From a virus, in IMG/VR virus record IMGVR_UViG_3300003177_000026, positions 1 through 24,274 of that record: a stretch of DNA of 24,274 nt; one strand, given 5' to 3'. The notes under the pieces are model-generated. The model was given only the letters and a program-made list of their open reading frames with translations. It did not search any database and had not been told where the DNA came from. Shown in pieces: positions 7,862-22,909 of this stretch. Position 1 is the first letter of the stretch. The number at the start of each line of letters is the position of its first letter. The translations under genes and the position numbers were made by a program.

Positions 7862-7911
7862 ATTCCGTCTATTAGTTGAGTGTTGCACACACTCGGTATT
7901 AAGCAATTATA
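7862..7911 (-). promoter_or_regulatory. Late leader element J: TATAAT, hairpin, ACTAA-n-AGACGGA
   Basis: Reading leftward: TATAAT (7911-7906), 11 bases, a hairpin GAGTGT-GTGCA-ACACTC (7894-7878), then ACTAATAGACGGA (7876-7864), and the gp47 ATG at 7855. The same ordered elements occur before terS and before the gpW-like gene. I read it as an internal promoter plus a structured 5' leader. Which part acts as DNA and which as RNA is not known. Confidence 0.65.
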
Positions 7912-7918
7912 TCTTAAA

Positions 7919-7935
7919 TTCTTTGATAAATCAAA
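7919..7935. repeat. 17-bp repeat copy A (pairs with 20323-20339)
   Basis: The leftward strand reads TTTGATTTATCAAAGAA, identical to the copy at 20323-20339. The core TTTGAT-TT-ATCAAA has 6-bp inverted arms. Here it overlaps the stop codon of the gp46-like gene and lies just upstream of the TATAAT of leader J. Confidence 0.6.
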
Positions 7936-8344
7936 CTATTTTTGTCAATATATTTAGGTTTTCATCTAAAGAGTAGATTAAATTATCTTTATTCTCATTA
8001 TTTCCGTAAAAAATTATAGTTCTGTCTAGTCTATTTCCGTTTTTAACAGACAAAATATCAATCTTATTTACTATTCCGTCATCTATGAGCCACTGCAAAG
8101 CCTCTCTTAATCCATTTTCATTCTTTTTTATGTTTTCATCACTTAGTTTTTCTAAATGATACTCTTTGTTTCCTACTGTCTTGCCATCTATTTGAGTGCC
8201 TATCTGTCTTTTGCTTGCATCTGTAAAGATAGATAAGATTGAAGCAGTTATGTAACTGTCATCTTTCTTAGTGTCGTTATTTTCTACTGCTGTATCAAAG
8301 AAAAAATCAGTACCTATTATATGATCTTGTAAATAAATATCCAT
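7931..8344 (-). CDS. Mu gp46-like baseplate wedge protein
   Basis: The 137-aa product has a gp46/gpW25-like arrangement: an early DLY-type segment (MDIYLQDH), a central YITASILSIFTDASKR, and an acidic ALQWLIDDGIVNKIDILS strand-turn near residue 88, the part that forms the wedge fold. It lies between gp45 and gp47, exactly the Mu order. Its TGA lies inside the 17-bp repeat. Confidence 0.8.
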   Translation of the reverse strand: MDIYLQDHIIGTDFFFDTAVENNDTKKDDSYITASILSIFTDASKRQIGTQIDGKTVGNKEYHLEKLSDENIKKNENGLREALQWLIDDGIVNKIDILSVKNGNRLDRTIIFYGNNENKDNLIYSLDENLNILTKIV

Positions 8345-8353
8345 TTATTATCC

Positions 8354-8878
8354 TTATGATGGAGGGTTTGTCTCCGCTTGTGAATTTCCTGCACTGTCAG
8401 TACCTTGAGAATGTGTATGTGTATCATCTATTGATGTTCCGTTTGCCGTGATAGTTCCTGTAAATGCTGATACGCTTGCGTTTACTGTGAAGCTTGAAGT
8501 GTTTATAGTATAATCTGTACAGTCAGACTGAATACTTTTTGCCTTAATCGTTATCTTATCTTTTTCAACTTTTATATAGTCTCCGTTTTGGTTATAAACA
8601 ACACTATCACCGCTTGCAACATCAATGATGCTCGCTATATGCTCATTTGCTATAACGATGCTTTCATTTCCTATCCTTGCAACTACGCATCGACTGTCAA
8701 GTGGAGCATTTGAGTTGAAACCGAACTGATTTACTTTTAATGCGTCTTCAATATTTCTAAGTGTCTTTAGCTGCACTTCTTGAAGCTTTCCATTACCGCC
8801 TATGACGTTTGTATATTTACCTATTTTTAAGATGTTTTCTAATTTTTCGTTAATATACTCTATGATCTGATTAAACAT
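8354..8878 (-). CDS. Mu gp45-like baseplate spike/assembly protein (gpV type)
   Basis: The 174-aa product is the membrane-piercing spike under the tail tube. An N-terminal helix leads to an OB-like domain (about residues 28-105, LQEVQLKTLRNIEDALK to VASGDSVVYNQNGDYIKVEKDKITI), then a beta-helix stretch of alternating residues. The tip carries DDTHTHSQG, the H-x-H metal-binding apex of phage spikes. I start at ATG 8878; TTG 8881 is also in frame. The start overlaps the end of the gpP gene. Confidence 0.85.
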   Translation of the reverse strand: MFNQIIEYINEKLENILKIGKYTNVIGGNGKLQEVQLKTLRNIEDALKVNQFGFNSNAPLDSRCVVARIGNESIVIANEHIASIIDVASGDSVVYNQNGDYIKVEKDKITIKAKSIQSDCTDYTINTSSFTVNASVSAFTGTITANGTSIDDTHTHSQGTDSAGNSQAETNPPS

Positions 8879-9791
8879 CAAATAATCCTTTGCTCACGAA
8901 AGTAACATTTGACACTGTTCCGCTATTGTCTTTTGTATATGTTATCTCCTTGATTAAAAATGAACTGTTTACTATCTCTGTTTCTATTTTCACTATCGTG
9001 TTTATTTCAAGTTCCCATCCGTGAACAACTGCTGATAATGACAATTCTTCAGATTTATTCTTGTTATACTGCCATTTTGCAAGGTCTTGATTTGTCTTAT
9101 CTTCCGTATTAACTTTTACGAACGGGCGAAATCTTGATACTGTGTCATCTGATACTATTCCGTCTGTTACATCATCTATCATACTTTCTTTTTTGTAAAC
9201 ATATTTGTCATGTCTATACGTGAGCTTTTTCGTGTATTTGAGACTTTTAAAATCATCGTCTTTGAGTATGATTCCACTCTCTTTTTTATCGTTCTTTACT
9301 ATGACTATATTTCCGTCTTTATCGCTTATAGGCAGTGTATTTGTTTGTTTGCATAGTCTGTTTATAGCATTGAAGTATGTCTCGCCAACTTTAGTATTAA
9401 ATACTTTTAGTGGAGATAGTTTTATATTTGATACTACTTTCATCCCAAACTCTGAAACTATATTGCTCATTATTTGCAGCACATTCAGCTTGTTGTACTG
9501 CTGAGGCGTGAGAATGTTGCTGTCTATAAGGTCTCCGGTCTTACTTCTTCCTGATATTCTAGTAGGCATCTTTTTATCGCATATTGATGCTGTTATCTCG
9601 TCAATGTATCCAGTTAAGAATGTTTTATCATCGACAAGTATCTCTACAACATCATCATTCTGTATGGATAATTCCGATCCGTTTAAAATCTCCATAGAGA
9701 ATGTGTGCGCGATTGATGTCATAGATTTAGTGATCGATACTTTTTCCCATCCGCTGTATTTTACATTGTTTACTTTTAATTCTAATATCAT
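8871..9791 (-). CDS. Mu gpP/gp44-like baseplate hub protein
   Basis: The 306-aa hub protein starts with a beta-rich domain (MILELKVNNVKYSGWEKVSI), has the gp27/gpD-like core with LTGYIDEITASI and NVLQIMSNIVSEFGM, and TYFNAINRLCKQTNTLPISDKDG, all typical of gp44 and late-control D proteins. In the virion it links tube and spike. ATG 9791 overlaps the stop of the upstream gpN gene (ATGA-type), so translation is probably coupled. Confidence 0.85.
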   Translation of the reverse strand: MILELKVNNVKYSGWEKVSITKSMTSIAHTFSMEILNGSELSIQNDDVVEILVDDKTFLTGYIDEITASICDKKMPTRISGRSKTGDLIDSNILTPQQYNKLNVLQIMSNIVSEFGMKVVSNIKLSPLKVFNTKVGETYFNAINRLCKQTNTLPISDKDGNIVIVKNDKKESGIILKDDDFKSLKYTKKLTYRHDKYVYKKESMIDDVTDGIVSDDTVSRFRPFVKVNTEDKTNQDLAKWQYNKNKSEELSLSAVVHGWELEINTIVKIETEIVNSSFLIKEITYTKDNSGTVSNVTFVSKGLFDV

Positions 9792-10990
9792 CTTGAAAGC
9801 ACCACTATATCGCCACTTATAAATATTGGATTAACGATTGAATTATTATCAAGCACCTCATCTACTCGTGAAATATCATTGTACTTATCCATTGTATATT
9901 GAAAAATGTCAGTAGTTATAGATACTCTATCTGTTTTTAAATTCTGCAGTTTTGAAAACTTAGCAGTGTAAAAAGATATAAACTCTTTGCGTGACTCTTG
10001 GTACTTGTCTAATAAGTCTTGCTTTGCTACAGTGTCGCCAATATCTCCGTTGTTAATTATGTCATTTTCTAACAATTCCATCACTCTTAAAATATCATCT
10101 TTACAACTTCCAAAGTCATCGCCTGTTGAAAAGTTTACATATTCAAGATTTTTTATAGCTGTGTGTATCATACCTGCAATTACACAATTTTGATAAGCTT
10201 TTGATGCTTCTAGTGCTTTAGCCTCCGCATAGTTGTTCGATGTTCTTATGCTGTTTGCCTCTGCCATTTCTCTCAGTGATGAAGTGTAATTCTTTTGTGA
10301 AGTAGAACTAAAAAGTTTTAAGTTCGTTACATCGTCAAAGTTTGCCCAAATGCTCACTATCTCATTTGCAAGGCTATCAACTGATATGATGTCGCCTTTT
10401 ACAGTTCCTATTATATTTCCTACTTTAGATTTGATATTTTGTGAGAAGTCTCTAGTGTCTTCAAGAAATTTTATGCCGTCTTCAACTTTTCCCCACATTT
10501 TCGTTATATCATCCACTACGCTATTACGAAGCAAATCTCCAATAGCAGGATAAAATGACTTTTTAAAGTTTGCTATTGCTGCAGGTCTCACATCAACTGT
10601 ATAAAGTATTTCTTTTGTCTTTTTGAGTTTATTTGTAGCTTTTTTGAAAGTTATATCTACTGTTGCCATTCCTATTTTAGAAATAGACTCTTTTATGCTC
10701 CATGTATCGACATATACTTCTATCTTTCCGTGAAACTTGTCTATAAGTATTCCGCTTGATGTATCCTCTAATGCTTGTTTTATTGCTTGTTTTTGGTCTA
10801 AGTAGTTATCTCCGCCTATGTACCCACTAACTTTTATAGTATTGTTTTTTAGTCCATTGCTTTCTGTAAGCGTTCCACCATTTATAAAGCTATGGTCCGT
10901 TAATCTTTGGCCGCCTGATAATTCATCATCTTTTGTATAAAAAGGTACTCCGCGAAATGAAGACTGATTTAGTTTTTTTATATCAAACAT
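9788..10990 (-). CDS. Mu gpN-like baseplate / DNA-circularisation family protein
   Basis: The 400-aa product carries the DNA_circ_N signature at its N-terminus: SSFRGVPFYTKDDELSGGQR, then HSFINGG and a GYIGGDNYLDQKQAIKQAL segment (residues about 12-95). Despite the family name, Mu gpN is a baseplate component that binds the tube end. The rest is helical. It overlaps the tape measure stop by one base and is followed by gpP, the Mu order. Confidence 0.85.
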   Translation of the reverse strand: MFDIKKLNQSSFRGVPFYTKDDELSGGQRLTDHSFINGGTLTESNGLKNNTIKVSGYIGGDNYLDQKQAIKQALEDTSSGILIDKFHGKIEVYVDTWSIKESISKIGMATVDITFKKATNKLKKTKEILYTVDVRPAAIANFKKSFYPAIGDLLRNSVVDDITKMWGKVEDGIKFLEDTRDFSQNIKSKVGNIIGTVKGDIISVDSLANEIVSIWANFDDVTNLKLFSSTSQKNYTSSLREMAEANSIRTSNNYAEAKALEASKAYQNCVIAGMIHTAIKNLEYVNFSTGDDFGSCKDDILRVMELLENDIINNGDIGDTVAKQDLLDKYQESRKEFISFYTAKFSKLQNLKTDRVSITTDIFQYTMDKYNDISRVDEVLDNNSIVNPIFISGDIVVLSR

Positions 10991-12498
10991 TAGAATTGTT
11001 TCCCATCGTTTAAAAATACATCTGTTTGTGTTGATCCTGCTGTTTCAACACTTCTTACTTTTCCATCTGCTACATTTACATGAACGGCTACCGGTACTAC
11101 TGTTTTGCTGTTGTTTTGAATAGTTTGCAATGCGTTTTGTGGCTGTGTCTGCTTTTGTGGTTCATCGCCTGAGAAAAAACCGCTTACAGTATCGACAATA
11201 CCGCCTAAACTCATATTTGACAATTTATCAGCATATTTCATAATCATTGCAAACTTACTTACTACCCAGTCTATCTGCTTTCCTATCATTCCAAAATACC
11301 AATTAAACCCATCACCTATGAACTTAAATACTTTTACAGCACCTCTTCCAAATCTATCTACTAGATTTCTGAATCCATCAAACTTATTATATGCCCATAT
11401 TACACCGGTTGTGACTGCTGCGAATCCTGCAACAATCAATCCTATAGGATTTGCATACATTGCAGCATTAAGCGCGAACATTCCTATTTTAAATAGTGCA
11501 ACACCTGCTACTACATCTCCGATATGATTTTGCAATGAAGACAAAAGTCCTATGCCGCCTTTTATTGCGTCAAACACTCCGACAACTGCAACTTTAACTT
11601 TTGTAATTGCCTCGTCTCTGTATTTTGCATTTTTAAACTTCTCTGTGAAGTCGCTCATTAATCCGGTAACTTCTTTGAGAACTGGAGTAAGTGCTTTGAA
11701 CTTTATGCTGTTTACTGCGAAGCTCAAATCTTGCATAGTATCATTATAGGCTGCTGCTGCTTTTATGTCCTCTTTTGACGCACCGCCTCCTAACTCTTTA
11801 AGTCTTTTGCGTGAGGCTATCAATCCGTTTACACCCTCATCGAGCATAAGTAATGATTTTCTACCAGTCATACCAAATGCGGCATCAGCTAAAGCCATCT
11901 TCGATTGTTGTGTTGGAAGCTTTGCATATGTCTTTAGTATCATCTCATATGCTTCTTTATTGCTTTTTGCACCTTTTAACTGCATTGCTAGTGCAGGACT
12001 TATCTTTTTAATGACATTTGCCATAAGTCCTGATCCTGTAGATTGAAATACACCAAGCCTCTTTGTAAAACGAGTAAGTGAAGCATCCATATCATCAGTT
12101 GATAGTCCTGCGTGTTTGGCCTGCTCATGCATCGCTTGAAGCTCATCAGTAGGTAGTTTTAAATTCCCTGCTTTTTTACCTAATTTATCAAGAGACTCTG
12201 CTTGCTGATTGACTGCCATAGCAAGCCCGCCTCCAAGAAGAAAGCTTCCTATTCCTGCAAGCTTACTAAATCCTGATGCGTATCCTTTCAGTCCTTTTTT
12301 TCCTGCATTTATGCTTCTGTTTACTCTGGTTAGTTTCTTGCTTAATCTTGTGAGTGACGACTGGCTTTTATTTACATTCGATGAAGCTTTTTTAGATGCA
12401 TTTCCTAAACCTATAAAGGACTTTGCAACATTTTTAAGCGGTGATGATGCTCTATCGACAATTGATACTTTACCCTGTGCAGGTTTTATTGATGCCAT
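10990..12498 (-). CDS. Tail tape measure protein
   Basis: The 502-aa protein sets tail length. It has a basic N-terminus, a glycine-rich segment (KLAGIGSFLLGGGLAMAVNQQ, about residues 76-96), a phage tape-measure helical region with LGKKAGNLKLPTDELQAMHEQA, and a hydrophobic block (about residues 325-375, from VVAGVALFKIGMF to VIWAYNKF) that would enter the host membrane. At roughly 1.5 Å per residue this predicts a short tail of about 75 nm. ATG 12498 has AAAAGGAC 8 bases upstream. It follows the frameshifted tail chaperone, as in most long-tailed phages. Confidence 0.9.
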   Translation of the reverse strand: MASIKPAQGKVSIVDRASSPLKNVAKSFIGLGNASKKASSNVNKSQSSLTRLSKKLTRVNRSINAGKKGLKGYASGFSKLAGIGSFLLGGGLAMAVNQQAESLDKLGKKAGNLKLPTDELQAMHEQAKHAGLSTDDMDASLTRFTKRLGVFQSTGSGLMANVIKKISPALAMQLKGAKSNKEAYEMILKTYAKLPTQQSKMALADAAFGMTGRKSLLMLDEGVNGLIASRKRLKELGGGASKEDIKAAAAYNDTMQDLSFAVNSIKFKALTPVLKEVTGLMSDFTEKFKNAKYRDEAITKVKVAVVGVFDAIKGGIGLLSSLQNHIGDVVAGVALFKIGMFALNAAMYANPIGLIVAGFAAVTTGVIWAYNKFDGFRNLVDRFGRGAVKVFKFIGDGFNWYFGMIGKQIDWVVSKFAMIMKYADKLSNMSLGGIVDTVSGFFSGDEPQKQTQPQNALQTIQNNSKTVVPVAVHVNVADGKVRSVETAGSTQTDVFLNDGKQF

Positions 12499-12531
12499 GT
12501 TTCAAGTCCTTTTTTGTTTGAAATACACTCA

Positions 12532-12555
12532 AAGCGATAAATCTAATTATCGCTT
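12532..12555. other. Stem-loop between tail chaperone and tape measure genes
   Basis: AAGCGATAA and TTATCGCTT form a perfect 9-bp stem with a 6-nt loop. The stop codon of the extended chaperone (12545-12543) lies in the loop. There is no U-run after it on the coding strand, so it is more likely an mRNA-stability or translation element than a terminator. Confidence 0.5.
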
Positions 12556-12922
12556 GGAATACATTTTAAAGCCAATTCATAAAGAGTATCTATTCTGTTG
12601 AGTGTTTTTAGTTCAGATGGCTGAGTGTGAAACACACTCATTATAGTTGCCATCTTCTCTAAATACTCTACTCTTCGCCTATAAACTTTCCCACTAAACC
12701 TGCAAGTTTATTGTAGTCAGATGGATGCAGGCTTCCAACTTGTTCACCTGTCAGTCCAGTAATGTTACATACTGCATCTTTGAGATTTGCACCTGTTGGA
12801 ATTGCTATGACATCAAGGAAATCATCAGCAGATATGTCCGCTTCTTCTTTTACTTGAATATCTTTTATTTCATTTTCGCCTAGTGCGTCTTTGATTGATC
12901 GTCTTAGTGTAAATTTCTGCAT
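12543..12922 (-). CDS. Extended tail assembly chaperone, made by -1 frameshift
   Basis: At 12692-12686 the coding strand carries G GGA AAG, a canonical -1 slippery heptamer and the same one lambda uses for gpG-T. After the slip the reading frame continues VYRRRVEYLEKMATIMSVFH and ends IPSDN with TAG at 12545-12543, giving a 126-aa product instead of 84. The gene between tube and tape measure having a -1 extension is the rule in contractile and siphovirus tails. The extended form binds the tape measure during assembly. Confidence 0.85.
12622..12645 (-). promoter_or_regulatory. Degenerate copy of the late leader hairpin inside the chaperone extension
   Basis: Reading leftward: TATAAT (12645-12640), then TGAGTGTG-TTT-CACACTCA (12640-12622), then ACTAAAA about 10 bases further. 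The GAGTGTG/CACTC arms match leaders S and J, but the loop is TTT instead of GTGCA and the AGACGGA block is missing. It lies within translated sequence, so it may be chance or a decayed copy. Confidence 0.35.
12668..12922 (-). CDS. Tail assembly chaperone, short form (Mu gp41/P2 gpE type)
   Basis: The 84-aa zero-frame product (MQKFTLRRSIKDALGENEIK) has the acidic, helical composition and size of gp41/gpE-type chaperones, with TGLTGEQVGSLHPSDYNKLAGLVGKFI near its end, the conserved part. It chaperones the tape measure before tube polymerisation. ATG 12922 overlaps the tube protein stop. The slippery site lies 18 bases before its TAG. Confidence 0.85.
   Translation of the reverse strand: MQKFTLRRSIKDALGENEIKDIQVKEEADISADDFLDVIAIPTGANLKDAVCNITGLTGEQVGSLHPSDYNKLAGLVGKFIGEE
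12686..12692 (-). other. -1 ribosomal frameshift site GGGAAAG
   Basis: The heptamer sits in frame as G-GGA-AAG, allowing both tRNAs to re-pair on GGG-AAA. The -1 frame is open from there to 12543. No strong stem-loop lies within 10 nt downstream. The nearest hairpin (12622-12640) begins about 45 nt away, so stimulation, if any, is not evident. Confidence 0.8.
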
Positions 12923-13281
12923 TATCTAACCTTTACATTTCCGGTAAACTCATACTCTACTACACCATCTGAAGCAGTAACACTTGGATCTGCTGTCTGT
13001 GTCATATTTGTACCGACTACTGTTTTACCATCGACAAGTTCTAAGATTACCTCGCCGTCTTCCATGTCTCTGAATTTGTCCGTATCTGCTTTTTTGAGCG
13101 TTGATACTTGCACCTTGACGTATCCTGCTTTTCTCTCTTGCGTTGTAAACATAACTTCGCCAGTTCCGTCATCAAGAACAGATGTTTTTTCTGCTCCAGA
13201 TGGCTTATACTCAGCCGTTCCTGTCTTAACTTGGATTGTCTGATTATTAATAGTCAGTCTTTTAATTCCTACGCTTGCCAT
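12922..13281 (-). CDS. Tail tube protein (Mu gpM-like)
   Basis: The 119-aa product forms the inner tube of the contractile tail. It is beta-rich with the tube-family opening IKRLTINNQTIQVKTGTAEY, the central VMFTTQERKAGYVKVQVSTL and the end GVVEYEFTGNVKVR. Length and pattern match the Mu-type tail tube family. It follows the sheath gene by nine bases (AGGAGG upstream of ATG), as in Mu. Confidence 0.9.
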   Translation of the reverse strand: MASVGIKRLTINNQTIQVKTGTAEYKPSGAEKTSVLDDGTGEVMFTTQERKAGYVKVQVSTLKKADTDKFRDMEDGEVILELVDGKTVVGTNMTQTADPSVTASDGVVEYEFTGNVKVR

Positions 13282-13290
13282 TTATTCCTC

Positions 13291-14748
13291 CTAAACTTCA
13301 TAGTTGATTAACATTGCTTGCTGTAGAAGCACGTTAATTACATCAATGTTCATTGTTGAGTTGATACGATTGCCGACTTTTTCTACAACAATACTATCCT
13401 CAAAACCTTTTAAGTTTTCACACACTGCGTCTTTTACAAGTTGCTCATAATTTAGTACCAAATACTGTTTATAAAGATTTGGAGTCATTACTTGAACACC
13501 TGGTCCGAATAGATCAGAGTCATTCCCTACTTTAAAGTTTTGGTACTGTGACATTCTTACTATGAATGTGTAACGAACATATGAGATAGTCAAGAACACT
13601 CTTAGATCTGTATCATCAACATTGAGCGCGATACCTTGCGCATCTTTTTGAAGCGTAGTTACTGTTCTATCAATGATTACTTTGCTTCCCATAACTCTAT
13701 AAGTAGCAACACCACCACCAGCCAAAACATTTCGCTCTGTTCTAATTCTCTCACTCAATGGCAAGAAACCTGCAAGTTCTTTGTTTAAATAACCTGCGCC
13801 CGGATTACTTTGTGCAATGTCTCCAACAAGTGCAATCATTCCGGCAGCTTGCTCAAAACCAGTTGCAAACACAGAGTAGTTATCAAGAACTGTAATAAAT
13901 GCACTGTTGATTGAATCTGTTTTTGTTGTGAGGTTTGTAACAGTATCGTTCACACCTACAACACAAAAACCATCGAGTAGTTCAGTAGCCTTGAAGTTGT
14001 CAGTAAGCGCAACATCTATAAGTGAAAGATTAGAGTTGTCAGTATATGGTTGTGCAATCAAATTAAACTGATTGTTTTCGAGTATTGATTGTACTCCAGT
14101 TGTTGTAAGGTCAGGATCGCCTGCACCGCCTGCAAAATCTGAAATGGCAACGGTAAGTCCAAGTGGAGTAACATCATCGGAATTGTAGTTCATCATTGAT
14201 TTTAGCGTGTTTCCGTATGTACCTTTATGCACAGCTGTCAAGTTCACTTGCTCAAGCACTGTTGCATCAACTGCCGCAGTAAACTGATTGTCTGTGTATT
14301 CTGCAATTTTTGCGTTCAATGCTGTTGCGATCGATGCACCTGTGTCTCCGACTGCAACTGCTACCTTATAAGCTCTGCCATTTACATAAAATGCAAGTGT
14401 TCCATTTTCAGTTGCCGTTCCTGTGATTGTAACATTACCTGCTGCTTGAATACCATTTGCATCGTCATCAAGTGCGATTACTTTTAATTTAACGCTCTTG
14501 TTGATGTCGTAGTATCTTCCAATAGCTGCTGCAAGCATAGAAGTAGCACCGAATTTCTTTACTGCTTCCTCTTTTGAAAAAATGTCAAGCACTTCATTTG
14601 GAACTGCTGTACCTGCTGCTGTTTTTTGTCCGAATATCAAAGCTGTGTACTCTTGCTTGATTGATCCAGTTGTGCTAATTGCTTTTCTAAGCTCTGCATA
14701 CACAAAAGGGATATTCATATTAAAAATTTCATTAAAACCAATAGCCAT
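13291..14748 (-). CDS. Contractile tail sheath protein (Mu gpL-like)
   Basis: The 485-aa protein is the sheath subunit that contracts on infection, close to Mu gpL in length. Visible landmarks are IPFVYAELRKAISTTGSIKQEYTALIFG at the start (residues about 14-40), AVGDTGASIATALNAKIAEY (about 125-145), ALVGDIAQSNPGAGYLNKELAGFLPLS, and the C-terminal VQVMTPNLYKQYLVLNYEQL. This gene marks the phage as a myovirus. The start overlaps the DUF2635 stop by one base. Confidence 0.9.
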   Translation of the reverse strand: MAIGFNEIFNMNIPFVYAELRKAISTTGSIKQEYTALIFGQKTAAGTAVPNEVLDIFSKEEAVKKFGATSMLAAAIGRYYDINKSVKLKVIALDDDANGIQAAGNVTITGTATENGTLAFYVNGRAYKVAVAVGDTGASIATALNAKIAEYTDNQFTAAVDATVLEQVNLTAVHKGTYGNTLKSMMNYNSDDVTPLGLTVAISDFAGGAGDPDLTTTGVQSILENNQFNLIAQPYTDNSNLSLIDVALTDNFKATELLDGFCVVGVNDTVTNLTTKTDSINSAFITVLDNYSVFATGFEQAAGMIALVGDIAQSNPGAGYLNKELAGFLPLSERIRTERNVLAGGGVATYRVMGSKVIIDRTVTTLQKDAQGIALNVDDTDLRVFLTISYVRYTFIVRMSQYQNFKVGNDSDLFGPGVQVMTPNLYKQYLVLNYEQLVKDAVCENLKGFEDSIVVEKVGNRINSTMNIDVINVLLQQAMLINYEV

Positions 14749-14933
14749 TATTTAGCTCCTCTTTTTTTAGATGTTTTCGTCTTGGATAAATCCTCAATCT
14801 TTACATCTCCATCGTTTAAGCGATTCATCCAAAATGAAGATACACTCTGAACTACTATGCCGTCTTGTGAAACTCTTTTCATAGTTTCAGGGTTTATTAC
14901 TTTTAAGCCATCTTTAGGCGTAATTTTAAACAT
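14748..14933 (-). CDS. DUF2635 family protein (Mu gp38-like)
   Basis: The 61-aa product has the short DUF2635 layout: an N-terminal strand (MFKITPKDGLKVINPETM), a VVQSVSSFWMNRLNDGDV core and a basic tail (KTKTSKKRGAK). In Mu this gene sits directly before the sheath gene, as here. Its function in tail assembly is unknown. It overlaps the upstream terminator gene by 8 bases. Confidence 0.8.
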   Translation of the reverse strand: MFKITPKDGLKVINPETMKRVSQDGIVVQSVSSFWMNRLNDGDVKIEDLSKTKTSKKRGAK

Positions 14934-15468
14934 TTAAAGGCACTCCCTCATTTGTTATTTGAATATTTGCGATACTTCCTTGCCAGTCGAAATCTTCAAG
15001 TGTCAATGGAATTACAGGAAGTGCGTAATCATAAGACACTTTGTAACTCATCATCGCCATTCCTATATCGTTCCCGCTTGAATTATCATGCTCTGTTGAT
15101 GAGCTTTGAAAAACGACATCCTCAAAAAGTGCGAAATAATCATCAGTGATAGAAGATACTCTTTCAGTGAGTATTCTTCCCATTGCGTTATCGACTTCAA
15201 GCATTACGTTCTCTATGACTTCGTAAAAGTCTCCGTTGTCAATTGTATTGTCACTCACAACTATGCCGACATTCAAGTCAAGCTCTCGTGATGTGTGTGT
15301 AGTGAACTGTTCAGATATAGATTCGTTTTTAGAAAAGAGTGTAAGATATGGAAAAACATCATTCTCGACTTGATTTATGCGTCCACTGTAAACACGACCT
15401 GCAACACTTGATACATTTGCTTTTAGCACTTGCTCAAAGTATTGTCGAATAACTGTTTTTTTATACAC
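14926..15468 (-). CDS. Putative tail terminator (Mu gp37-like), GTG start
   Basis: The 180-aa product begins with GTG at 15468, supported by AAGGA 6 bases upstream. It has an N-terminal helix (VIRQYFEQVLKAN), then VYSGRINQVENDVFPYLTLF and ELDLNVGIVVSDN, the alternating helix/strand order of gpU/gp37-type terminators. Position immediately before the DUF2635 and sheath genes, and length close to Mu gp37, support that role: capping the tail tube before head joining. Confidence 0.65.
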   Translation of the reverse strand: MYKKTVIRQYFEQVLKANVSSVAGRVYSGRINQVENDVFPYLTLFSKNESISEQFTTHTSRELDLNVGIVVSDNTIDNGDFYEVIENVMLEVDNAMGRILTERVSSITDDYFALFEDVVFQSSSTEHDNSSGNDIGMAMMSYKVSYDYALPVIPLTLEDFDWQGSIANIQITNEGVPLNV

Positions 15469-15470
15469 GC

Positions 15471-15773: not shown

Positions 15774-16060
15774 TACTTCTTAGCACCTTTTAAAGTTTCA
15801 ATTTCAGCTTTTAAAGTTTCAATTTCAGTATCTTTTTCACTGTTTTCAGCTTTTAAAGTTTCAATTTCTTTTTTGATTTCTTCATCAATCAATTTTTGTG
15901 ATGCTACAACTTTTTTAGATGGATCAACTGCATGTCCATCTTTAATAAATTTTTTTGCATCAGCATCAGGCAAATCTACAACTTCGCCAGCGTTAGCAAA
16001 GCTTGATGCTTTGCTTCCTTTAGGTGTAACTTTTACAGTTTTCAAAAGTTCAACTTTCAT
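15773..16060 (-). CDS. Small head-region protein with C-terminal coiled coil
   Basis: The 95-aa product has an N-terminal beta domain (residues about 1-50: VKVTPKGSKASS and GEVVDLPDADAKKFIKDG, of the small phage-protein type with a V-DLP-x-x-A-x-x-L-I-x-x-G pattern). This is followed by a coiled coil of Lys/Glu heptads (EIETLKAE repeated). It lies at the lambda FI position, between major capsid and the FII-like gene, but shows no clear FI similarity. The coiled-coil part is encoded by 21-bp repeats. Confidence 0.65.
   Translation of the reverse strand: MKVELLKTVKVTPKGSKASSFANAGEVVDLPDADAKKFIKDGHAVDPSKKVVASQKLIDEEIKKEIETLKAENSEKDTEIETLKAEIETLKGAKK
15787..15868 (-). repeat. 21-bp tandem repeat encoding EIETLKA heptads
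   Basis: The plus-strand 19-mer CTTTTAAAGTTTCAATTTC occurs at 15787, 15808 and 15850, i.e. spaced 21 and 42 bases, so four 21-bp units, one diverged. Each unit is one heptad of the coiled coil. Repeat number could vary by slippage without breaking the frame. Confidence 0.75.
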
Positions 16061-16070
16061 TATCTACTCC

Positions 16071-17086
16071 TTATGCCAATACTGTCGCTACGAGCGTAGA
16101 GTTTGCATCTACAAGTAACGGCGCACGTGTTTGAATTGCCTCAACTTCAATAACTTTCTTAGCTTTTGAAACTTTAGAAATGAAGTTACGAACATCTTTT
16201 GCAGCACGAACATCATCATTCATTGTTGTGAAGTCAATATCCATATCTCCTGCATATCCTGCAATATCTACATTACCATTCACGGCGGATAGAACTGCGA
16301 CTTTTCTTGCAGGTACTGCTTTTTGAGATACGCCATTAGCGTCAGTATAATTTCCATCATAACCCCATAGCTCCAAACCTTTGTAAGTTCCATAGAAAAT
16401 AGCACCGCTTACATCAGCAAACGATTTAAACACTAGCGATCCGTTTTCAATACGTCTGTTATCAAGCTCTTTTTGAACATTTGCATTACTTACTAATGCT
16501 CTCATAGTAGCAATACGACCTATTACGTGAGTTGCGTTTGATCCATCTTGTCCGATAAGGTCAATAAATGTTTCAATATCACTCTCAGGTGTTCCGCCTG
16601 CTTCGTTCCAATAGTTACCAGAAAGTAAGTCGATAGTATTTGATGCTTTACGCGCAAAATCAACTATACGGTTTTCACCCTTACCTACAACAGAGATTTG
16701 ACCATCGAAACAAGCATTAATTGCCATAATTTCCATAGCATTTTCAATCATCTCTCTTTGCTCTTGCTGAATCTCTGCGATCATAACGGCAGCTTTTGCA
16801 GCGTATGTAGTCTGCGTGTAAACATTTTGACCGCGTAGTCGCTTTTTCAGCTCACTTGATGTAAGCGTCATTAAATCTTGAAGCGTTGGAAGTTTGAAAG
16901 TATGCTCATCAAAGCTAAGTTTCTCTGTTCCATCTGCAACTGCATCAGGATTAACGAATTGAGCGACACGAATACCTCTGAATTGCTTGTCAATCTCTAC
17001 GATTTCAGAGTCTTGTGTTGCACTTGTTCCGAAAAACTGAGTGACTTTCCTAATGTTCTTGTTAAATCAGTAAATTCGATACCCAT
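16071..17086 (-). CDS. Major capsid protein (lambda gpE-like), frame broken at codon 14
   Basis: The gene opens at 17086 (TAATG overlap with the decoration gene) and reads MGIEFTDLTRTLGK. The next in-frame codons lead to TAG at 16999-16997 after 29 codons. One base back, an uninterrupted frame reads VTQFFGTSATQDSEIVEIDK and runs on through the whole gpE domain (FDEHTFKLPTLQDLMTLTSS to LLVDANSTLVATVLA) to 16071. Joining the two gives 338 aa, very close to lambda gpE (341). The simplest account is loss of one A from GGAAAAG at 17047-17045. The longest uninterrupted frame starts at an internal ATG (16871), lacks the first 72 residues and would not be a full capsid subunit. The rest of the gene is intact. 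Confidence 0.85.
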
Positions 17087-17454
17087 TATTTATTTCCTTT
17101 TTTTAAGATGATGCCTTTTGCCTGTAAAATACCTGCAATAGCCGCTTTTGTTTGTGTTCCAGGAAGTGTCACGCTATTTTCGTTAAACTCTCCGATATAA
17201 CCGACACCTGCTGCGTTTCCTGCTGTTGCATCGACATCCTCTGCAAGAACTACAACTGTTTGAGCGTCATATCCTAGCTGTGGAGTTGCAGCAGCGACAC
17301 CGCTTCCAACTACATTCGCATCTGTATATAATCCAGTGTCTTGCAACACAACTACTTGACCTCTTGTATATGCTTTTCCTGCTGCCAAAGTGATACCGAA
17401 ATCGTTTTCAATTTCAATTACCAAGTTATCAGGAGCGATTGTTGATACACCCAT
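17086..17454 (-). CDS. Head decoration protein (lambda gpD-like)
   Basis: The 122-aa product would stabilise the expanded capsid as trimers on its surface. It is beta-rich and Ala/Gly-rich: VIEIENDFGITLAAGKAYTRGQVV, then TPQLGYDAQTVVVLAEDVDATAGNAAG and an EFNENSVTL-x-G-TQ element, the gpD-like plan. It lies between scaffold and major capsid, exactly the lambda order. Its TAA overlaps the major capsid ATG. Confidence 0.85.
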   Translation of the reverse strand: MGVSTIAPDNLVIEIENDFGITLAAGKAYTRGQVVVLQDTGLYTDANVVGSGVAAATPQLGYDAQTVVVLAEDVDATAGNAAGVGYIGEFNENSVTLPGTQTKAAIAGILQAKGIILKKGNK

Positions 17455-17456
17455 CT

Positions 17457-17825
17457 TTAATTACCTCCGAAAGTTTTTTCTAAAGCCTCTTCGGCTTCTT
17501 TGTTTGCTTTTGCATCAGCGTCGAGTGTTTCCTCTTCATCTGATTCATCTAAGCCATCAAGTTCTTGTGCGCCTGCTTCGAAGTCAGTTCTCTCTTTCTT
17601 CATTTGTGCGTCACGTAACTTTAAAAGTGCAATAGCGGCATCGCCTACGCTTTGACCGTCGTCGATAGCTTTTGCTGTGAACTCTGCGCTTGCTCCAAGT
17701 GCGATAATACCGCTTACACGCTCGCGCTCTTTTGCAACTGCATTTTCAGTTGATGTTCTCAAAGCTTCGGCGTGTTCATCTGTCAAAGCTTGAACTTCTA
17801 CATCTGTATAAGTTTTCTTACTCAT
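17457..17825 (-). CDS. Nested scaffold protein (lambda Nu3-like), internal in-frame start
   Basis: An ATG at 17825, in frame with the protease, is preceded by AAGGAGA only 4-5 bases away, the best ribosome binding site in the head region. The predicted 122-aa product (MSKKTYTDVEVQALTDEHAE onward) is highly acidic with long helices and ends EEALEKTFGGN. This copies the lambda C/Nu3 arrangement, in which excess scaffold is needed relative to the protease. Confidence 0.85.
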   Translation of the reverse strand: MSKKTYTDVEVQALTDEHAEALRTSTENAVAKERERVSGIIALGASAEFTAKAIDDGQSVGDAAIALLKLRDAQMKKERTDFEAGAQELDGLDESDEEETLDADAKANKEAEEALEKTFGGN

Positions 17826-18497
17826 ACTTTCTCCTTTTGGTTGATTTTTGATTTGTGCCGAAGCTGAGTTTACTCTCAAAGTATCCTTTAACATTGCCGC
17901 TACTTGTTCGTTCTCATCGTCAGTAATGTTTGCTTTGTAGTTTGCAACACACGCTTTTACACTCTCAACTGCCAGTGCTTTAGCTGTCATTGGGTCGTCT
18001 TCTTTTCCACTTGAAATGATTTCATCGCAGAATCCATTTGTTAATATGTCTTCTCCGTAGAAGTATGTTTCATCATCTAAGAGTTTTTTCATCGCTTTTT
18101 CATCTTTCGATGTTTTAGCGATATACTCTTTTATGAGTAGTTTTGTAAGGCTTTCTACATGGTCAGCATCTTTTCTAAGCTGTCTTGCGTCTCCCCATGA
18201 GATAATGCTTGCGTTATGTATCATATAGACTGCATTGTCGTATGCTTTTATGCTATCTCCTGCTAGTGCTATGTAAGAAGCCATAGAAGCAGCTAGTCCG
18301 GTTATTACAACTTCAACACTTCCTTTCTCATATGCTCTAATAGCATTAAATATTGAAATTCCTTCCATGACGCTTCCGCCAGGAGAGTTTATCTCTATTG
18401 TAATATCTCCGCTTTGCTCATCAAGCTGTTCTTTTATATATTGTGACGAGACTGCTCCCCATCTTCCAATATCACCATCTATCTTAATTACTGACAT
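17457..18497 (-). CDS. Prohead protease with C-terminal scaffold domain (lambda C-like, ClpP-type)
   Basis: The 346-aa product has a ClpP-like peptidase (residues about 1-190) with oxyanion segment INSPGGSV (about 37-43), catalytic serine in GLAASMAS (Ser71) and histidine in YMIHNAS (His94). The C-terminal part (from about 225) is an acidic, helical scaffold. It matures and scaffolds the prohead, with the scaffold also made separately from an internal start. The start overlaps the end of the portal gene by 14 bases. Confidence 0.9.
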   Translation of the reverse strand: MSVIKIDGDIGRWGAVSSQYIKEQLDEQSGDITIEINSPGGSVMEGISIFNAIRAYEKGSVEVVITGLAASMASYIALAGDSIKAYDNAVYMIHNASIISWGDARQLRKDADHVESLTKLLIKEYIAKTSKDEKAMKKLLDDETYFYGEDILTNGFCDEIISSGKEDDPMTAKALAVESVKACVANYKANITDDENEQVAAMLKDTLRVNSASAQIKNQPKGESMSKKTYTDVEVQALTDEHAEALRTSTENAVAKERERVSGIIALGASAEFTAKAIDDGQSVGDAAIALLKLRDAQMKKERTDFEAGAQELDGLDESDEEETLDADAKANKEAEEALEKTFGGN

Positions 18498-19938
18498 ATA
18501 TTTCCTCCTGTAAAGGTTTTATTAGCTCTTTTTCTTTTTTCAATATGTTCACATTCGTTTCAAAATCTCCAAAACCAAGTTCAACAGTTGCCTGTTCTCT
18601 TGTAAGAAGATGATTGTCGATTGCAGACACTTTCGCTTTCACGTCTTTTTGTGGATCAACACTTCCCATTGGGTCGCCAATCCATATTGATTTCAGATAT
18701 GCACTTCTGTTTTCAAAGAAGTCTGGCACGTCCAAATCTCCACTCAACACTCCCCACGTTATAACTTGGTCTCGTATAGGCTTGCAGAACGATGTGATGA
18801 ACAGCTCACGCTCAGGCTTAACGAACTTTTGCATCTGTAACATTGCAGCGCGTGAAGCTGAGTAGCTAGATGTGAATTGAGTTAAGATTATCTCAAGTGG
18901 TATTCGTGTTGATGCTGCAACTTTCTGCATTGATGTCATTACGAACTTATCGTAGTTTGGATTGTCTCGACCTTGTTGATGTATTTTTAACTCGTCGCCC
19001 GGCAATAACTGTGTGATGCTATTCTCTTTTATAGTATTCTTTTCAGTCTGCTTTTGCTCAGTTGGATTAAGCAGGTCCGCTTCACTTCCAAATATATCCT
19101 CTTTTGATTGAGTCGTGATTGACCCAAAGAATATTGCTGAGAGTTTTGCTGCTGTTAATTCATATTTCATATACTGATCGATTGCATCAACGTCTCGCAT
19201 TACTGGAGATAGAAAAGGAATACCTCTTTTGAGTTTTGCGCGTTCTCTGTTGAACACATGAAGTATGTTTCGCTTTCCTTTTGAGAATGCTTTTACTTTT
19301 TTAAATGTATTGTCTTTTTGAATTATTGAGTATGATACAGGCATCCCGTTTCTGTTTACTTTTATGCCGTGTTCAAAACCAAGTTCATATGATTTTACGT
19401 GTTCTGCTCCGATCATGTTTATTTGAACTACTTTTCCGCTTCTAACTGGTGTAAGTGGAAGTGAAACAAAACAATCGCCATCTCTTTTATACTGCATATA
19501 TGCGAGTCTTTGAATTGCATAGAAGTTATCTTTAGATGTAACATCGCACATCGTTGATTCTGCCCATGCATTAAAATAGTCGTCAAACATCTCTTCTGTG
19601 TTCTTTGCTTTCTCTTCTGTAAGTGATGGAATAAGTCTGCGTTGTATAGTAGATTTTGAGTGAAGTCCGCTTCCTACAACATGATCTACAGCTGCTGATA
19701 TAGTTCCTTTATAAAAGCCATTGTTATAATATTTATCTCGTGATGTCGCTCGTAATGTCACAAGGTCTAATATGTCTAACTCTTCAGGATTATCCCATTG
19801 CGCAACTTCATAGTTAGGTGTTGGTCGAGATGCGTCGTGTATTGATCCTATAAGTGCTGTAGCTGCTCTAAGTCTTGACGCTTTAAAAGCATATTCAGGG
19901 TTAAAATAGCCTCTAGCTTTATCTACAAAATTAAGCAT
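18484..19938 (-). CDS. Portal protein (lambda gpB-like)
   Basis: The 484-aa product forms the dodecameric DNA channel at the capsid vertex. Landmarks of the lambda portal family are LRATSRDKYYNNGFYKGTIS near residue 60-80, IGAEHVKSYELGFEHGI, VFNRERAKLKRGIPFLSPVM near 230, and PLEIILTQFTSSYSASRAAMLQ (about 350-372). It overlaps the gpW-like gene at its start by 8 bases and the protease at its end by 14, so the three are translated as a unit. Confidence 0.9.
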   Translation of the reverse strand: MLNFVDKARGYFNPEYAFKASRLRAATALIGSIHDASRPTPNYEVAQWDNPEELDILDLVTLRATSRDKYYNNGFYKGTISAAVDHVVGSGLHSKSTIQRRLIPSLTEEKAKNTEEMFDDYFNAWAESTMCDVTSKDNFYAIQRLAYMQYKRDGDCFVSLPLTPVRSGKVVQINMIGAEHVKSYELGFEHGIKVNRNGMPVSYSIIQKDNTFKKVKAFSKGKRNILHVFNRERAKLKRGIPFLSPVMRDVDAIDQYMKYELTAAKLSAIFFGSITTQSKEDIFGSEADLLNPTEQKQTEKNTIKENSITQLLPGDELKIHQQGRDNPNYDKFVMTSMQKVAASTRIPLEIILTQFTSSYSASRAAMLQMQKFVKPERELFITSFCKPIRDQVITWGVLSGDLDVPDFFENRSAYLKSIWIGDPMGSVDPQKDVKAKVSAIDNHLLTREQATVELGFGDFETNVNILKKEKELIKPLQEEIYVSN

Positions 19939-20218
19939 TTAATCTTCTCGTGAAAATTGTTCTAAACTTTGGAGAGAGAGTAGAGGAGTCTATTAGGTTT
20001 TCAATCTTCTCAGTCCACTTATTGACTTGTGATTCTACTTCCTTGATGTTTGTGCGCGTGAGAGTTCTTGATGAGCTTTGCCCATTTGAAATAGTATATG
20101 ATTGCGCTTGTGATATAGCAGATAGAGCGTTTTCCCACTCATCTAAGTTGTCGAGGAAATAATCTTCTAAAGACTTACCGAGCTTCGCGGCTCTTAGTCT
20201 ATCTGCATTTGTTATCAT
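19931..20218 (-). CDS. Putative head-tail joining protein (gpW-like)
   Basis: The 95-aa product is mostly helical with the segment SYTISNGQSSSRTLTRTNIKEVESQV (residues about 40-65), the pattern of gpW-type proteins (an NGQ/SRT strand turn before a final helix). It lies between large terminase and portal, the lambda W position. I chose ATG 20218 (MITNADRL), which follows AGACGGA. A longer frame to 20254 would run into the leader hairpin. Confidence 0.65.
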   Translation of the reverse strand: MITNADRLRAAKLGKSLEDYFLDNLDEWENALSAISQAQSYTISNGQSSSRTLTRTNIKEVESQVNKWTEKIENLIDSSTLSPKFRTIFTRRLNA

Positions 20219-20224
20219 TAAGGC

Positions 20225-20284
20225 AATTCCGTCTTTTAGTACGATGTTGCACACATCGTTTTTTATCGATTCACCACAATTATA
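20225..20284 (-). promoter_or_regulatory. Late leader element W: TATAAT, hairpin, ACTAA-n-AGACGGA
   Basis: Reading leftward: TATAAT (20284-20279), 20 bases, hairpin CGATGT-GTGCA-ACATCG (20258-20242), extended by one pair on each side, then ACTAAAAGACGGA (20240-20228), and ATG at 20218. Compared with leaders S and J the loop GTGCA is the same, but three stem pairs differ and still pair. That points to selection on structure. Sequence upstream of the -10 (ATTTAAG-n-TATAATTG) is also shared with leader J. Confidence 0.65.
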
Positions 20285-20318
20285 ACTTAAATATATTTAA
20301 AAGTCAAAGAAAATATAG

Positions 20319-22217
20319 CTATTTCTTTGATAAATCAAAGTTTTTAATCTGTTGTTGTAAAAGTTTTACTGCTGCAAGCTGATATACTTCAAGGTCCAAT
20401 GCCTCATTTCTCTCACGCGTCTTGATGTATGTCTGTTCTAAAAAGCCGCGTTTGTTCTTTTTAAATACTTTTTTTTCTGCTGTGAGTTGATTAAACCACT
20501 CTTCGTCAAAGCTGTTATTGTGATGTATATAGCCGTCATCATCAACATTAAGAGCTAGTCTGTCGAAAATAATATCTTTCGCTTTTGTTGTGGCTACCCA
20601 CATAATGACACTTTCATCTTTCTTTGCTTGTTTCAAAGTAGCAATAGGTCTTGAGTCATTTGTCTTCACTTCCTTGTCATCACCTTTTAAAAGAACGAAC
20701 TTGCTAGGATGTTTTTTGACAAAGTTTTTAACCTCATCTGTTTTATGACCGCCCATATCTATGAATGACCGGTATATGTTCACTTTCTTTCCGTCTTGCA
20801 TAAAGAAGTCTTCTTTTGATACTTCTAGCAGTTTATCCCACACATACTTGTTGATAGGATCTCCCATTATCTTTCCTGCTCGTATGTTATAGCTTGTTTC
20901 TCCATCACACCAAGCCTTAATGAGATATTCCAGTCTATCATCTTGTGTATCGACTGTCATGAGTAAAATCTTCGCGCCGTTTGGAATGTAGTCATAATCT
21001 TCCGCATTGTTCATCAGGTTGTTTGTATTGAGGGTGACTGCTTTTTCTTCCCATGTCTCAGCAAGCCAAGTGTTTTTAAATGATTTCATCTTCTCTGCAT
21101 CATTCAGAGAGTTCACAAAAGTCTCTGCTATCTTCGCCCATGTCGTATTTGGTTGAAAAGAGTACCCAGCCCAAATATGATAGCCTCGCTTTTTTCTTCC
21201 AATGCGATTATATTCAGCAGTCTTTCCACACTCTATACAGAGAGCCTCGCCGTTTCTTTTGTCTTGTGGATCATCTTCGTTTTCAAACCAATTTCTATTC
21301 TCTTTCGGGTCTTGCCATTTTCCGCAACAATAAAAAGGTCTTGTTTGTCTCCACTTGCCTTTTTTATCCATAGCTTTCTTATGGTCGTGACTTATAAGCT
21401 CTTCGCAGTTGATACATTTCATCTTAGTATCTTCCGTGTGCCAGTGTTTCACACCGTCTCTATACTCTTGCGGTATGATGAGATTTTTAAACTCTAATAT
21501 CTGATAGTGTCCGCACTTCGGACATGGTAAGTATCTAAATCTCATATCAGTTTCATTGAATTTTGTTTCTATTTTTGAGTGATATTTTATTGTTGGAGTT
21601 GAGCCTATCATAACTTGACCGTTCCAGTACGACTCAGTTCTTTTTTTTGCAAGCTCGTAAGGGTCTCCCTCACCATCTACATCGTCTGGGAATCTATCAT
21701 ACTCATCAAGTCGTATCTTCTTAGCTGTTGCAGATGCGTAGTTGTTTGCAGATTTTCCACCGCGCGACTCAATAAAGCCACCCGGATAAGCTTTATAATT
21801 TAGATTGTTTTCTTCTCGTGTCTTGATGATGCAGTCGCCTACATATGGAATATCTCGTAATAGTGGTTTTAACTCTTTTTTGCTCCACTCTCCGGCTTTG
21901 GAATCGTTCGGCTGAAATATAATCTGAGGGCATGGATCCTCTACAATGTCATACGCTACTGAGAAGTTCACTATCTTTGTGTATCCAACACGAGTGCTTT
22001 TCATCCACACTAGCAGTTCTATATCATCATCACTTGTATCTCTCAGTATGTCCTCTTGATATGCAAATGGAATAAATCGACCAGTTATCGCTGAACTCTC
22101 AGCAGATAAATACCCGTGTTCCTTTGCAAATTCAAGCGTATTTGTTTTTGGCTTCGGCTTTAACTCTTTAAATATTTCAGCTATTATCGACTGTTGCTTA
22201 TATGTTAGATTTTTCAA
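20319..22217 (-). CDS. Terminase large subunit (lambda gpA-like), TTG start
   Basis: The 632-aa DNA-packaging motor is close to lambda gpA (641). The ATPase has the phage Walker A-like STRVGYTK (about residues 74-81), a Walker B-like IRLDEYD (about 168-173), and the SANNYASA segment. Cysteines at CPKC (232-235), CINC (268-271), CC (297-298) and CIEC (327-330) form a zinc-binding insert. The nuclease part has TVDTQDD (Asp423) and FIDMGG (Asp487), with EALDLEVYQLAA near the end. It begins with TTG at 22217, in an overlap with the small subunit. Confidence 0.95.
   Translation of the reverse strand: MKNLTYKQQSIIAEIFKELKPKPKTNTLEFAKEHGYLSAESSAITGRFIPFAYQEDILRDTSDDDIELLVWMKSTRVGYTKIVNFSVAYDIVEDPCPQIIFQPNDSKAGEWSKKELKPLLRDIPYVGDCIIKTREENNLNYKAYPGGFIESRGGKSANNYASATAKKIRLDEYDRFPDDVDGEGDPYELAKKRTESYWNGQVMIGSTPTIKYHSKIETKFNETDMRFRYLPCPKCGHYQILEFKNLIIPQEYRDGVKHWHTEDTKMKCINCEELISHDHKKAMDKKGKWRQTRPFYCCGKWQDPKENRNWFENEDDPQDKRNGEALCIECGKTAEYNRIGRKKRGYHIWAGYSFQPNTTWAKIAETFVNSLNDAEKMKSFKNTWLAETWEEKAVTLNTNNLMNNAEDYDYIPNGAKILLMTVDTQDDRLEYLIKAWCDGETSYNIRAGKIMGDPINKYVWDKLLEVSKEDFFMQDGKKVNIYRSFIDMGGHKTDEVKNFVKKHPSKFVLLKGDDKEVKTNDSRPIATLKQAKKDESVIMWVATTKAKDIIFDRLALNVDDDGYIHHNNSFDEEWFNQLTAEKKVFKKNKRGFLEQTYIKTRERNEALDLEVYQLAAVKLLQQQIKNFDLSKK
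20323..20339. repeat. 17-bp repeat copy B (pairs with 7919-7935)
   Basis: The leftward strand reads TTTGATTTATCAAAGAA, identical to copy A, with 6-bp inverted arms. It codes for the last residues of the large terminase (NFDLSKK) and lies about 40-60 bp upstream of the TATAAT of leader W. Both copies are thus at gene ends directly upstream of the same kind of leader. Confidence 0.6.
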
Positions 22218-22854
22218 ACTGCTTACCTACTGCCTGCAAATCACTCAATATCTTGTTAATATCATCTGTAACATACTCTTTGATTGTAGTCTTGTCTGCA
22301 TTCTCTAAGTTAACAGCGTAGTTATTCGGCATATTTATCATTGCGTTTCGTATCATGCTCATAGCTGCGCTTAAAATTTGGATAGCTTCGTCTTTAGTAA
22401 ACAGGTCCTCTTCTAATTTTCTATTTTTTATCTCTTCATTTTTTGCAAGGAAGTACTCTTTCAATATTGATGCTTTTAGTTTCAATCCGTCAAGATACGC
22501 TCTGTCTTTTGTGTTTGCTTGATTGTCTATTGCGCTCTCAATTTCTTCGAGCAGACTTCTTGCTTCTGTATCACTATTAAATGACTTCGATTCTTGTTGT
22601 TTTTGTTTGGTCTGTTTTTTTGCTTTTGGTTTTTCTTTTGTATCTGTTTGTTTTTTTTGAATATTGTTGTGATTGTTTGAATATTGAGGATCATCAGGAT
22701 TGCGTCCTAATGCTTTGCAGGTTTTTATATAGTAGTATTTTTTAGCTCTTGTGCATCCTTTTAGTTTTCCATCTCTTTTTTGATTTGATAGATAGCTAGG
22801 ATTAATCCCTAATCTTTTAGAAAGTTCTGCACCACTTAAAAGCTCGTCTTTCAT
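22198..22854 (-). CDS. Terminase small subunit (lambda gpNu1-like)
   Basis: The 218-aa product recognises packaging-site DNA and loads the motor. It starts with a winged-helix-like region (LSGAELSKRLGINPSYLSNQ, about residues 6-25), then a Lys/Gln-rich linker (about 60-100), a coiled coil (about 100-150) and a C-terminal domain ending EYVTDDINKILSDLQAVGK that would hold the large subunit. I chose ATG 22854 (GGAG 6 bases upstream), not the longer frame to 22887, which would read through the leader hairpin. Confidence 0.8.
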   Translation of the reverse strand: MKDELLSGAELSKRLGINPSYLSNQKRDGKLKGCTRAKKYYYIKTCKALGRNPDDPQYSNNHNNIQKKQTDTKEKPKAKKQTKQKQQESKSFNSDTEARSLLEEIESAIDNQANTKDRAYLDGLKLKASILKEYFLAKNEEIKNRKLEEDLFTKDEAIQILSAAMSMIRNAMINMPNNYAVNLENADKTTIKEYVTDDINKILSDLQAVGKQFEKSNI

Positions 22855-22861
22855 TTGTAGC

Positions 22862-22909
22862 TCCGTCTGTTTAGTAGAGTGTTGCACACACTCGTTTAAT
22901 AGAATTGTA
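22862..22909 (-). promoter_or_regulatory. Late leader element S: TACAAT, hairpin, ACTAA-n-AGACGGA
   Basis: Reading leftward: TACAAT (22909-22904), 10 bases, hairpin GAGTGT-GTGCA-ACACTC (22893-22877), ACTAAACAGACGGA (22875-22862), and ATG 22854. The hairpin is identical to leader J and structurally equal to leader W. It heads the whole late region. The three 12-bp repeats at 22923-22958 lie just upstream, where an activator could contact polymerase. Confidence 0.65.

Follow-up and report, generated by a model that had tools for sequence, protein, structure and literature searches.

A structured 5' leader at late-gene blocks of a Campylobacterota phage recurs upstream of host cvfB and may be a site of post-transcriptional control

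A short hairpin leader occurs three times in the phage sequence IMG/VR virus record IMGVR_UViG_3300003177_000026 (positions 1 to 24,274; this whole stretch of 24,274 nt is referred to below as the window), before the small terminase gene terS (copy S), a gpW-like head-tail adaptor gene (copy W) and the baseplate J gene (copy J). The same leader was very probably also present upstream of a single kind of chromosomal gene in Campylobacterales, cvfB, whose product carries S1 and winged-helix domains (solved relative, 3go5). From these sequence comparisons we tentatively favour the view that the element is a post-transcriptional leader of cvfB, probably autogenous, which phages use at the starts of their modules, with CvfB as the candidate ligand.

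A preliminary description of the window had reported three copies sharing one order, a -10 box, a hairpin with a GTGCA loop, ACGGA and a start codon, and all three were recovered on the minus strand exactly as it gave them (Table 1). It had placed them at module boundaries, and terS, the gpW-like gene and J were indeed each the first gene of their own late-gene block; most other late genes of the window are preceded by different sequences, and AGGAG- or AAGGA-type sites are present at several of them. The stems of S and J differ from that of W at three pairs with pairing intact, and W has an additional seventh A-U pair. After the closing arm of the stem (ACACTC in S and J, ACATCG in W) the sequence reads TACTAAACAGACGGA in S, TACTAAAAGACGGA in W and AACTAATAGACGGA in J, and the ATG comes 7-9 nt after the leader element. 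Each leader has its own predicted sigma70-type promoter, with good -35 boxes in W and J (TTGACT-17-TATAAT and TTGATT-17-TATAAT) and an extended -10 instead in S, in keeping with the separate transcription starts suggested earlier. The gap between promoter and hairpin is 20 nt in W versus 10-11 nt in S and J, and if transcription starts about 7 nt after the -10, as standard spacing would have it, the hairpin would begin 5-13 nt into the predicted transcript. The sequence GTGTGCAACAC, with one mismatch allowed, occurred six times (S, W and J among them) against 0.34 expected, a number that none of 100 shuffles reached. Single window copies gave modest minimum free energy z-scores of -1.2 to -1.6, and the case for a fold rests on covariation, not on energy.

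Relatives located through TerL and J added eight copies in five phage genomes, giving 11 in total: S and W copies in L009, S, W and J copies in L011 with its remainder L078, a J copy in L085 (whose W is identical to that of L009), and J copies in the L016 and L017 phages. In the alignment of these copies 98.5% of stem cells were paired, and five of the six pairs had changed on both sides. Double-change cells numbered 16 versus 5.7 in shuffles (0/500), and the covariation score was 0.776 versus 0.380 in shuffles (0/500) and was lost when the partner was slid by one to three columns. The clearest cases were the J stem of L016, GAATAC/GTATTC around GAGAA, and a paired A-U for G-C exchange in both L009 copies. 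G.U or U.G pairs were kept in five stem cells, which places the fold in the coding-strand RNA, that is, in the mRNA; together with the coexistence of unrelated stem sequences within one phage, they argue for recognition of RNA rather than DNA. The loops were GTGCA, GCGCA, GTGAA and GAGAA, with GNRNA in 10 of the 11 copies (the exception, the J copy of L017, has GAAAG and a mismatch). The phage leader is thus almost certainly structured, and selection on the folded RNA, which the earlier account had argued from the S/J and W stems, is supported by the wider comparison; that account had held that a lack of further covarying copies in related phages would count against it, and eight were found. 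The W hairpin was also considered as a plus-strand terminator and rejected, as it is not conserved as such in the remaining copies.

A second form of the leader, form B, was found before the W gene of L010 and L012-L017, where the same -10 and ACGGAATNRCC are present with GAGGATTNAAAMACTC in place of the hairpin (the GAGGATT form). A pattern scan turned up form B in further viral contigs, including three other phage types in which it stands at the start of the head block; there the gene orders were TerL, leader, small protein, portal and capsid in L042, GpA TerL, leader, small protein, lambda-type portal and capsid E in L087, and leader, DUF2213 and capsid in L036. The L016 and L017 phages carry form B ahead of W and the hairpin ahead of J. 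In the L036 phage (G007), the J gene (797-1828, 52% identity) has no leader despite the form B leader before the DUF2213 head gene. An extra leader lies between terL and a 90-aa open reading frame at L012:3396-3452, with an ATAGT/ACTAT stem and a ATTAAAAC loop. As a covarying hairpin form B was rejected, since its pairs were mostly three invariant ones and its minimum free energy no better than that of shuffles, L012:3396 being the sole supporting copy. A tight pattern scan of viral contigs gave coding false matches only, and a broadened hairpin pattern gave 32 stretches, with genuine leaders only at L009/L047 and L057. Among the matches listed for two looser patterns, TATAAT..GAGGATT and TATAAT..ACGGAATNRCC, most were due to chance, and the latter pattern yielded, among the matches listed, one new leader: a further gpW leader at L358:3568-3627, GGGTA-T-GAAAA-T-TACCC followed by ACGGAATTACC, which is intermediate between the two forms (5 bp, a mismatch and a GAAAA loop).

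The link to the host came from a first covariance model built from phage copies only, with no cvfB leader among its input. Searched against 289 kb of phage sequence, it returned all hairpin leaders at E<1e-7, model E-values being rough by design, and below them only form B leaders and L012:3396. Among 228 Sulfurimonadaceae genomes it gave no match beyond one phage contig. Its matches in 399 Campylobacterales genomes comprised, besides one phage contig, just two loci (per-genome E 1.9e-4 and 3.7e-4), each followed immediately by the chromosomal gene cvfB, which encodes an S1_2 and CvfB_WH protein. Over 246 kb around host cvfB genes the model gave 36 weak-to-strong matches, 35 at the cvfB leader; the single match elsewhere, L205:2366, was without ACGGA. 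A second, sequence-only model made from ten host leaders taken out of the cvfB regions gave 24 matches in 24 of the 228 Sulfurimonadaceae genomes, one each and all before cvfB; this 24/24 partly recovers the model's own training copies, and the independent step is the phage-only model. Most genomes searched were fragments or metagenome-assembled genomes (MAGs). The cvfB gene itself was found in 113 of 121 Sulfurimonadaceae, and the phage MAG G001 gave no cvfB match.

Many cvfB upstream regions have the order TATAATGTC, hairpin, ACGGAAnnAC, AAGGAA and start, with about 25 distinct hairpins among the host leaders. In many of these copies ACGGAAnnAC lies next to a separate AAGGAA Shine-Dalgarno sequence and is therefore more than a Shine-Dalgarno itself, and some cvfB genes of other Campylobacterales retain it without the hairpin. 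The 14-mer ACTAAAATACGGAA is common to the W leader of phage L009 and the host leaders L168, L177 and L183, a length that 3 of 200 shuffles reached. No match to Rfam 15 at gathering score was obtained for the window and ten phage and cvfB loci, which agrees with the earlier statement that the element is not a named one. As a general chromosomal motif, ACGGAATWAC..ATG was not clearly above its reversed control. Some Sulfurimonadaceae cvfB genes have TATAAT a few bases from the ATG, with a 5' untranslated region that is very short or absent, and no ACGGAA (L104-L106, L108-L110, L114, L115, L119, L120, L122, L123 and L128). The host cvfB link, the persistence of ACGGAAnnAC beyond the hairpin and the GAGGATT form in other phages all extend the preliminary description.

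That the leader stands before phage late blocks and, in chromosomes, before one gene only, which encodes an RNA-binding protein, is best explained by a common post-transcriptional factor, and a single trans-acting factor for phage and cvfB leaders is probable. Autogenous control is usual for genes of RNA-binding proteins and is established for S1, S15 and others, which makes CvfB the first candidate; that it is the common factor we hold as a plausible but tentative proposal. Autogenous leaders are conserved, structured and placed immediately ahead of the gene for the RNA-binding protein, and a leader of this kind was found at cvfB, although we know of no leader family for this gene. The closest parallels are the autogenous leaders of E. 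coli rpsA/S1 and rpsO/S15, which share a short structured 5' leader, a non-canonical ribosome-binding region and an RNA-binding protein gene (with S1 domains, as in rpsA); they differ in that here copies also precede phage late genes and that the ligand at cvfB is only a candidate. The title of Matsumoto 2010, as cited in PMC6477937, presents the CvfB family as an RNA-binding module. In the mechanism that we propose, the S, W and J copies would be one kind of 5' leader RNA, in which a short hairpin very near the start of the transcript precedes an ACGGAAnnAC-type element in the ribosome-binding region. A host regulator acting after transcription would recognise this leader; the simplest candidate is CvfB, which as an S1-domain RNA-binding protein may control its own mRNA through it, and copies at block starts would extend this control to terS/terL and to the head and baseplate blocks. 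The regulator would bind ACGGAAnnAC, while the 5' hairpin would help it to dock or would guard the 5' end, and binding would set translation of the first gene and, because the genes that follow are closely packed or overlap, translation of the block, the direction being either repression or activation.

Several observations weigh against this proposal. The GNRNA loop is not conserved in most host hairpins, and the cvfB leaders L107, L111 and L117 carry ACGGAATTACC without a hairpin, so that a single loop-reading ligand is unlikely. The host model reached phage copies weakly (best E 0.013), form B shows little covariation, and in many Sulfurimonadaceae the region upstream of cvfB is short and different, and lacks this leader. 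No cvfB match was obtained in 51 of 110 sampled Campylobacterales, and cvfB is identified here by homology alone. The literature found documents no autogenous control of cvfB and includes no paper on a cvfB leader.

An unlikely alternative is that the hairpin is a 5'-end stabiliser that blocks 5' exonucleolytic or pyrophosphohydrolase-dependent decay and raises late mRNA, with ACGGAA merely the ribosome-binding site. The hairpin begins about 10-12 nt past the -10 in most phage and host copies, the host stem sequence varies freely and many host loops are tolerated, much as ompA-type stabilising hairpins lie near the mRNA 5' end with a free stem sequence. Unlike those, however, the leader has a gene-specific distribution and a conserved downstream element, and stabilisation leaves unexplained its chromosomal restriction to cvfB (24/24), the retention of ACGGAAnnAC where the hairpin is lost and the invariant GAGGATTNAAAMACTC in form B. 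Such a role is compatible with control by CvfB and may be what the hairpin itself does.

Antitermination of the boxB/nut kind, in which an N-like peptide or host factor binds the GNRNA hairpin and polymerase reads through to the end of the block, is improbable. It draws on the 5-nt GNR(N)A loops of 10 of the 11 phage hairpins (and GAAAA in L358), the class of lambda boxB, likewise a small stem near the start of a phage transcript, and on the fact that each promoter has a single element where a long block begins. The 11-copy alignment, however, held no consistent boxA-like sequence, and intrinsic terminators were not in excess in the window (4 and 7 versus 5.3 and 6.5 expected). In contrast to boxB, this element has a 6-bp stem, extends as far as the start codon and retains ACGGAA, for which antitermination has no use; it has a form B that lacks the loop, and its host copy stands before cvfB, where there is no long operon needing readthrough. 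A boxB/nut role would account for the loop seen in phages but for neither cvfB nor ACGGAA.

Repression of the late genes and cvfB by CsrA, bound to ACGGA (ANGGA) over the ribosome-binding site, is very unlikely. As in CsrA/RsmA leaders, ANGGA lies over the ribosome-binding site near a hairpin; it is present in every copy, form B contains a second GGA, located at a loop edge, and csrA was detected in 23 of 26 leader-bearing genomes. It was, however, not detected in G229, G511 and G359, of which the last two have the highest-scoring cvfB leaders, although these genomes could be incomplete. In contrast to CsrA/RsmA leaders, moreover, the hairpin form has one GGA only, with none in the phage GNRNA loops or the varied host loops, and conservation extends beyond GGA to AAnnAC.

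Module exchange does bear on the leader. Its form and the gpW allele occurred in all four combinations (hairpin with MIT in the window and L009, form B with MIT in L015, hairpin with MAKTA in L011, and form B with MAKTA in L010 and others), and this free mixing shows that exchanges have had their breakpoints at the leader or close to it. That the leader is retained mainly as a short homology at module borders is nevertheless highly improbable, since covarying stems make the copies less alike in sequence, whereas a homology linker would need them to be alike, and the host cvfB copies are not at module borders. Conserved short sequences at the module borders of lambdoid phages are alike in position and in signs of exchange, but differ from the present case, with its covarying fold and host chromosomal copy. 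Exchange at the leader is a consequence of its place, not a sufficient reason for its form. Of the four functions first offered for the leader, control by an RNA-binding protein is favoured by the cvfB copies; recombination at the leader has also occurred but leaves the covarying stem and the cvfB copies unexplained.

That the element acts as an operator in DNA, where a dimeric phage repressor would bind immediately 3' of the -10, is scarcely credible, for although a 17-bp inverted repeat overlaps the initial transcribed region and the window encodes a CI-like repressor, the arms differ within one phage (GAGTGT versus CGATGT) with compensation and a constant centre, G.U pairs break the DNA symmetry, and the position relative to the -10 shifts by 10 bp in W. 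The operator, CsrA and plain boxB/nut explanations all fit less well than a cvfB leader taken up by phages.

Table 1. Leaders and leader-associated genes of the window
Feature	Position	Strand	Promoter	Hairpin	3' of hairpin	Start codon	Score or annotation
S leader (before terS)	22862..22909	-	extended -10 TACAAT 22904-22909 (TGATACAAT)	stem GAGTGT 22888-22893, loop GTGCA 22883-22887, stem ACACTC 22877-22882	TACTAAACAG; ACGGA 22862-22866	ATG at 22854	phage covariance model 62.5 bits, E 3e-10
W leader (before gpW-like gene)	20225..20307	-	-35 TTGACT 20302-20307, 17-nt spacer, -10 TATAAT 20279-20284; score 11/12	stem CGATGT 20253-20258 (+A 20259), loop GTGCA 20248-20252, stem ACATCG 20242-20247 (+T 20241)	ACTAAAAG; ACGGA 20228-20232	ATG at 20218	phage covariance model 64.8 bits
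J leader (before baseplate J)	7862..7934	-	-35 TTGATT 7929-7934, 17-nt spacer, -10 TATAAT 7906-7911; score 10/12	stem GAGTGT 7889-7894, loop GTGCA 7884-7888, stem ACACTC 7878-7883	AACTAATAG; ACGGA 7864-7868	ATG at 7855	phage covariance model 71.8 bits
terS	22198..22854	-					PHROG 57 terminase small subunit; packaging block gene 1
terL (GpA-type)	20319..22217	-					PF20454/PF05876; packaging block gene 2
gpW-like head-tail adaptor	19931..20218	-					PHROG 118; DUF6148 weak; head block gene 1
Baseplate J	6824..7855	-					PF04865; gene 1 of baseplate/fibre/lysis block

TerL relatives of the window phage were found in the Sulfurimonas MAG contigs L011 (97%) and L012 (69%) and in the viral contigs L009, L010 and L013-L017, and the predicted host is therefore the sulfur-oxidising bacterium Sulfurimonas or close to it. 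Close relatives were not found among annotated phage records; the paper on prophage SNW-1 (PMC11290706) presents itself as the first report of a Sulfurimonas phage. As the window holds a CI-like S24 repressor gene (465-1166, plus strand), the phage is probably temperate. A perfect TTGACA-18-TATAAT promoter lies at 391-420 on the minus strand, divergent from and just upstream of this gene, an arrangement that resembles an early control region for lysis and lysogeny. An open reading frame of 115 aa, listed at 73-420, starts inside that promoter, and its true start is therefore probably further downstream. A protein with WYL and TerB domains (1294-2058, plus strand), possibly an accessory or defence-type regulator, adjoins the repressor, and a DUF7768/nucleoside 2-deoxyribosyltransferase-like protein is encoded upstream of terS (23722-24231, minus strand).

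It is plausible, though we put it forward with some reserve, that temperate phages of Campylobacterota captured the CvfB autoregulatory leader, so that their packaging, head and tail blocks joined the CvfB regulon and a host switch at the RNA level times the late genes, in which case late phage mRNA may titrate CvfB. We know of no CvfB targets in Campylobacterota, and if this proposal is true, the leader would give CvfB its first defined candidate target RNA in this group. Phage structural operons would then be plugged into a host post-transcriptional switch, and not into a phage-coded late activator.

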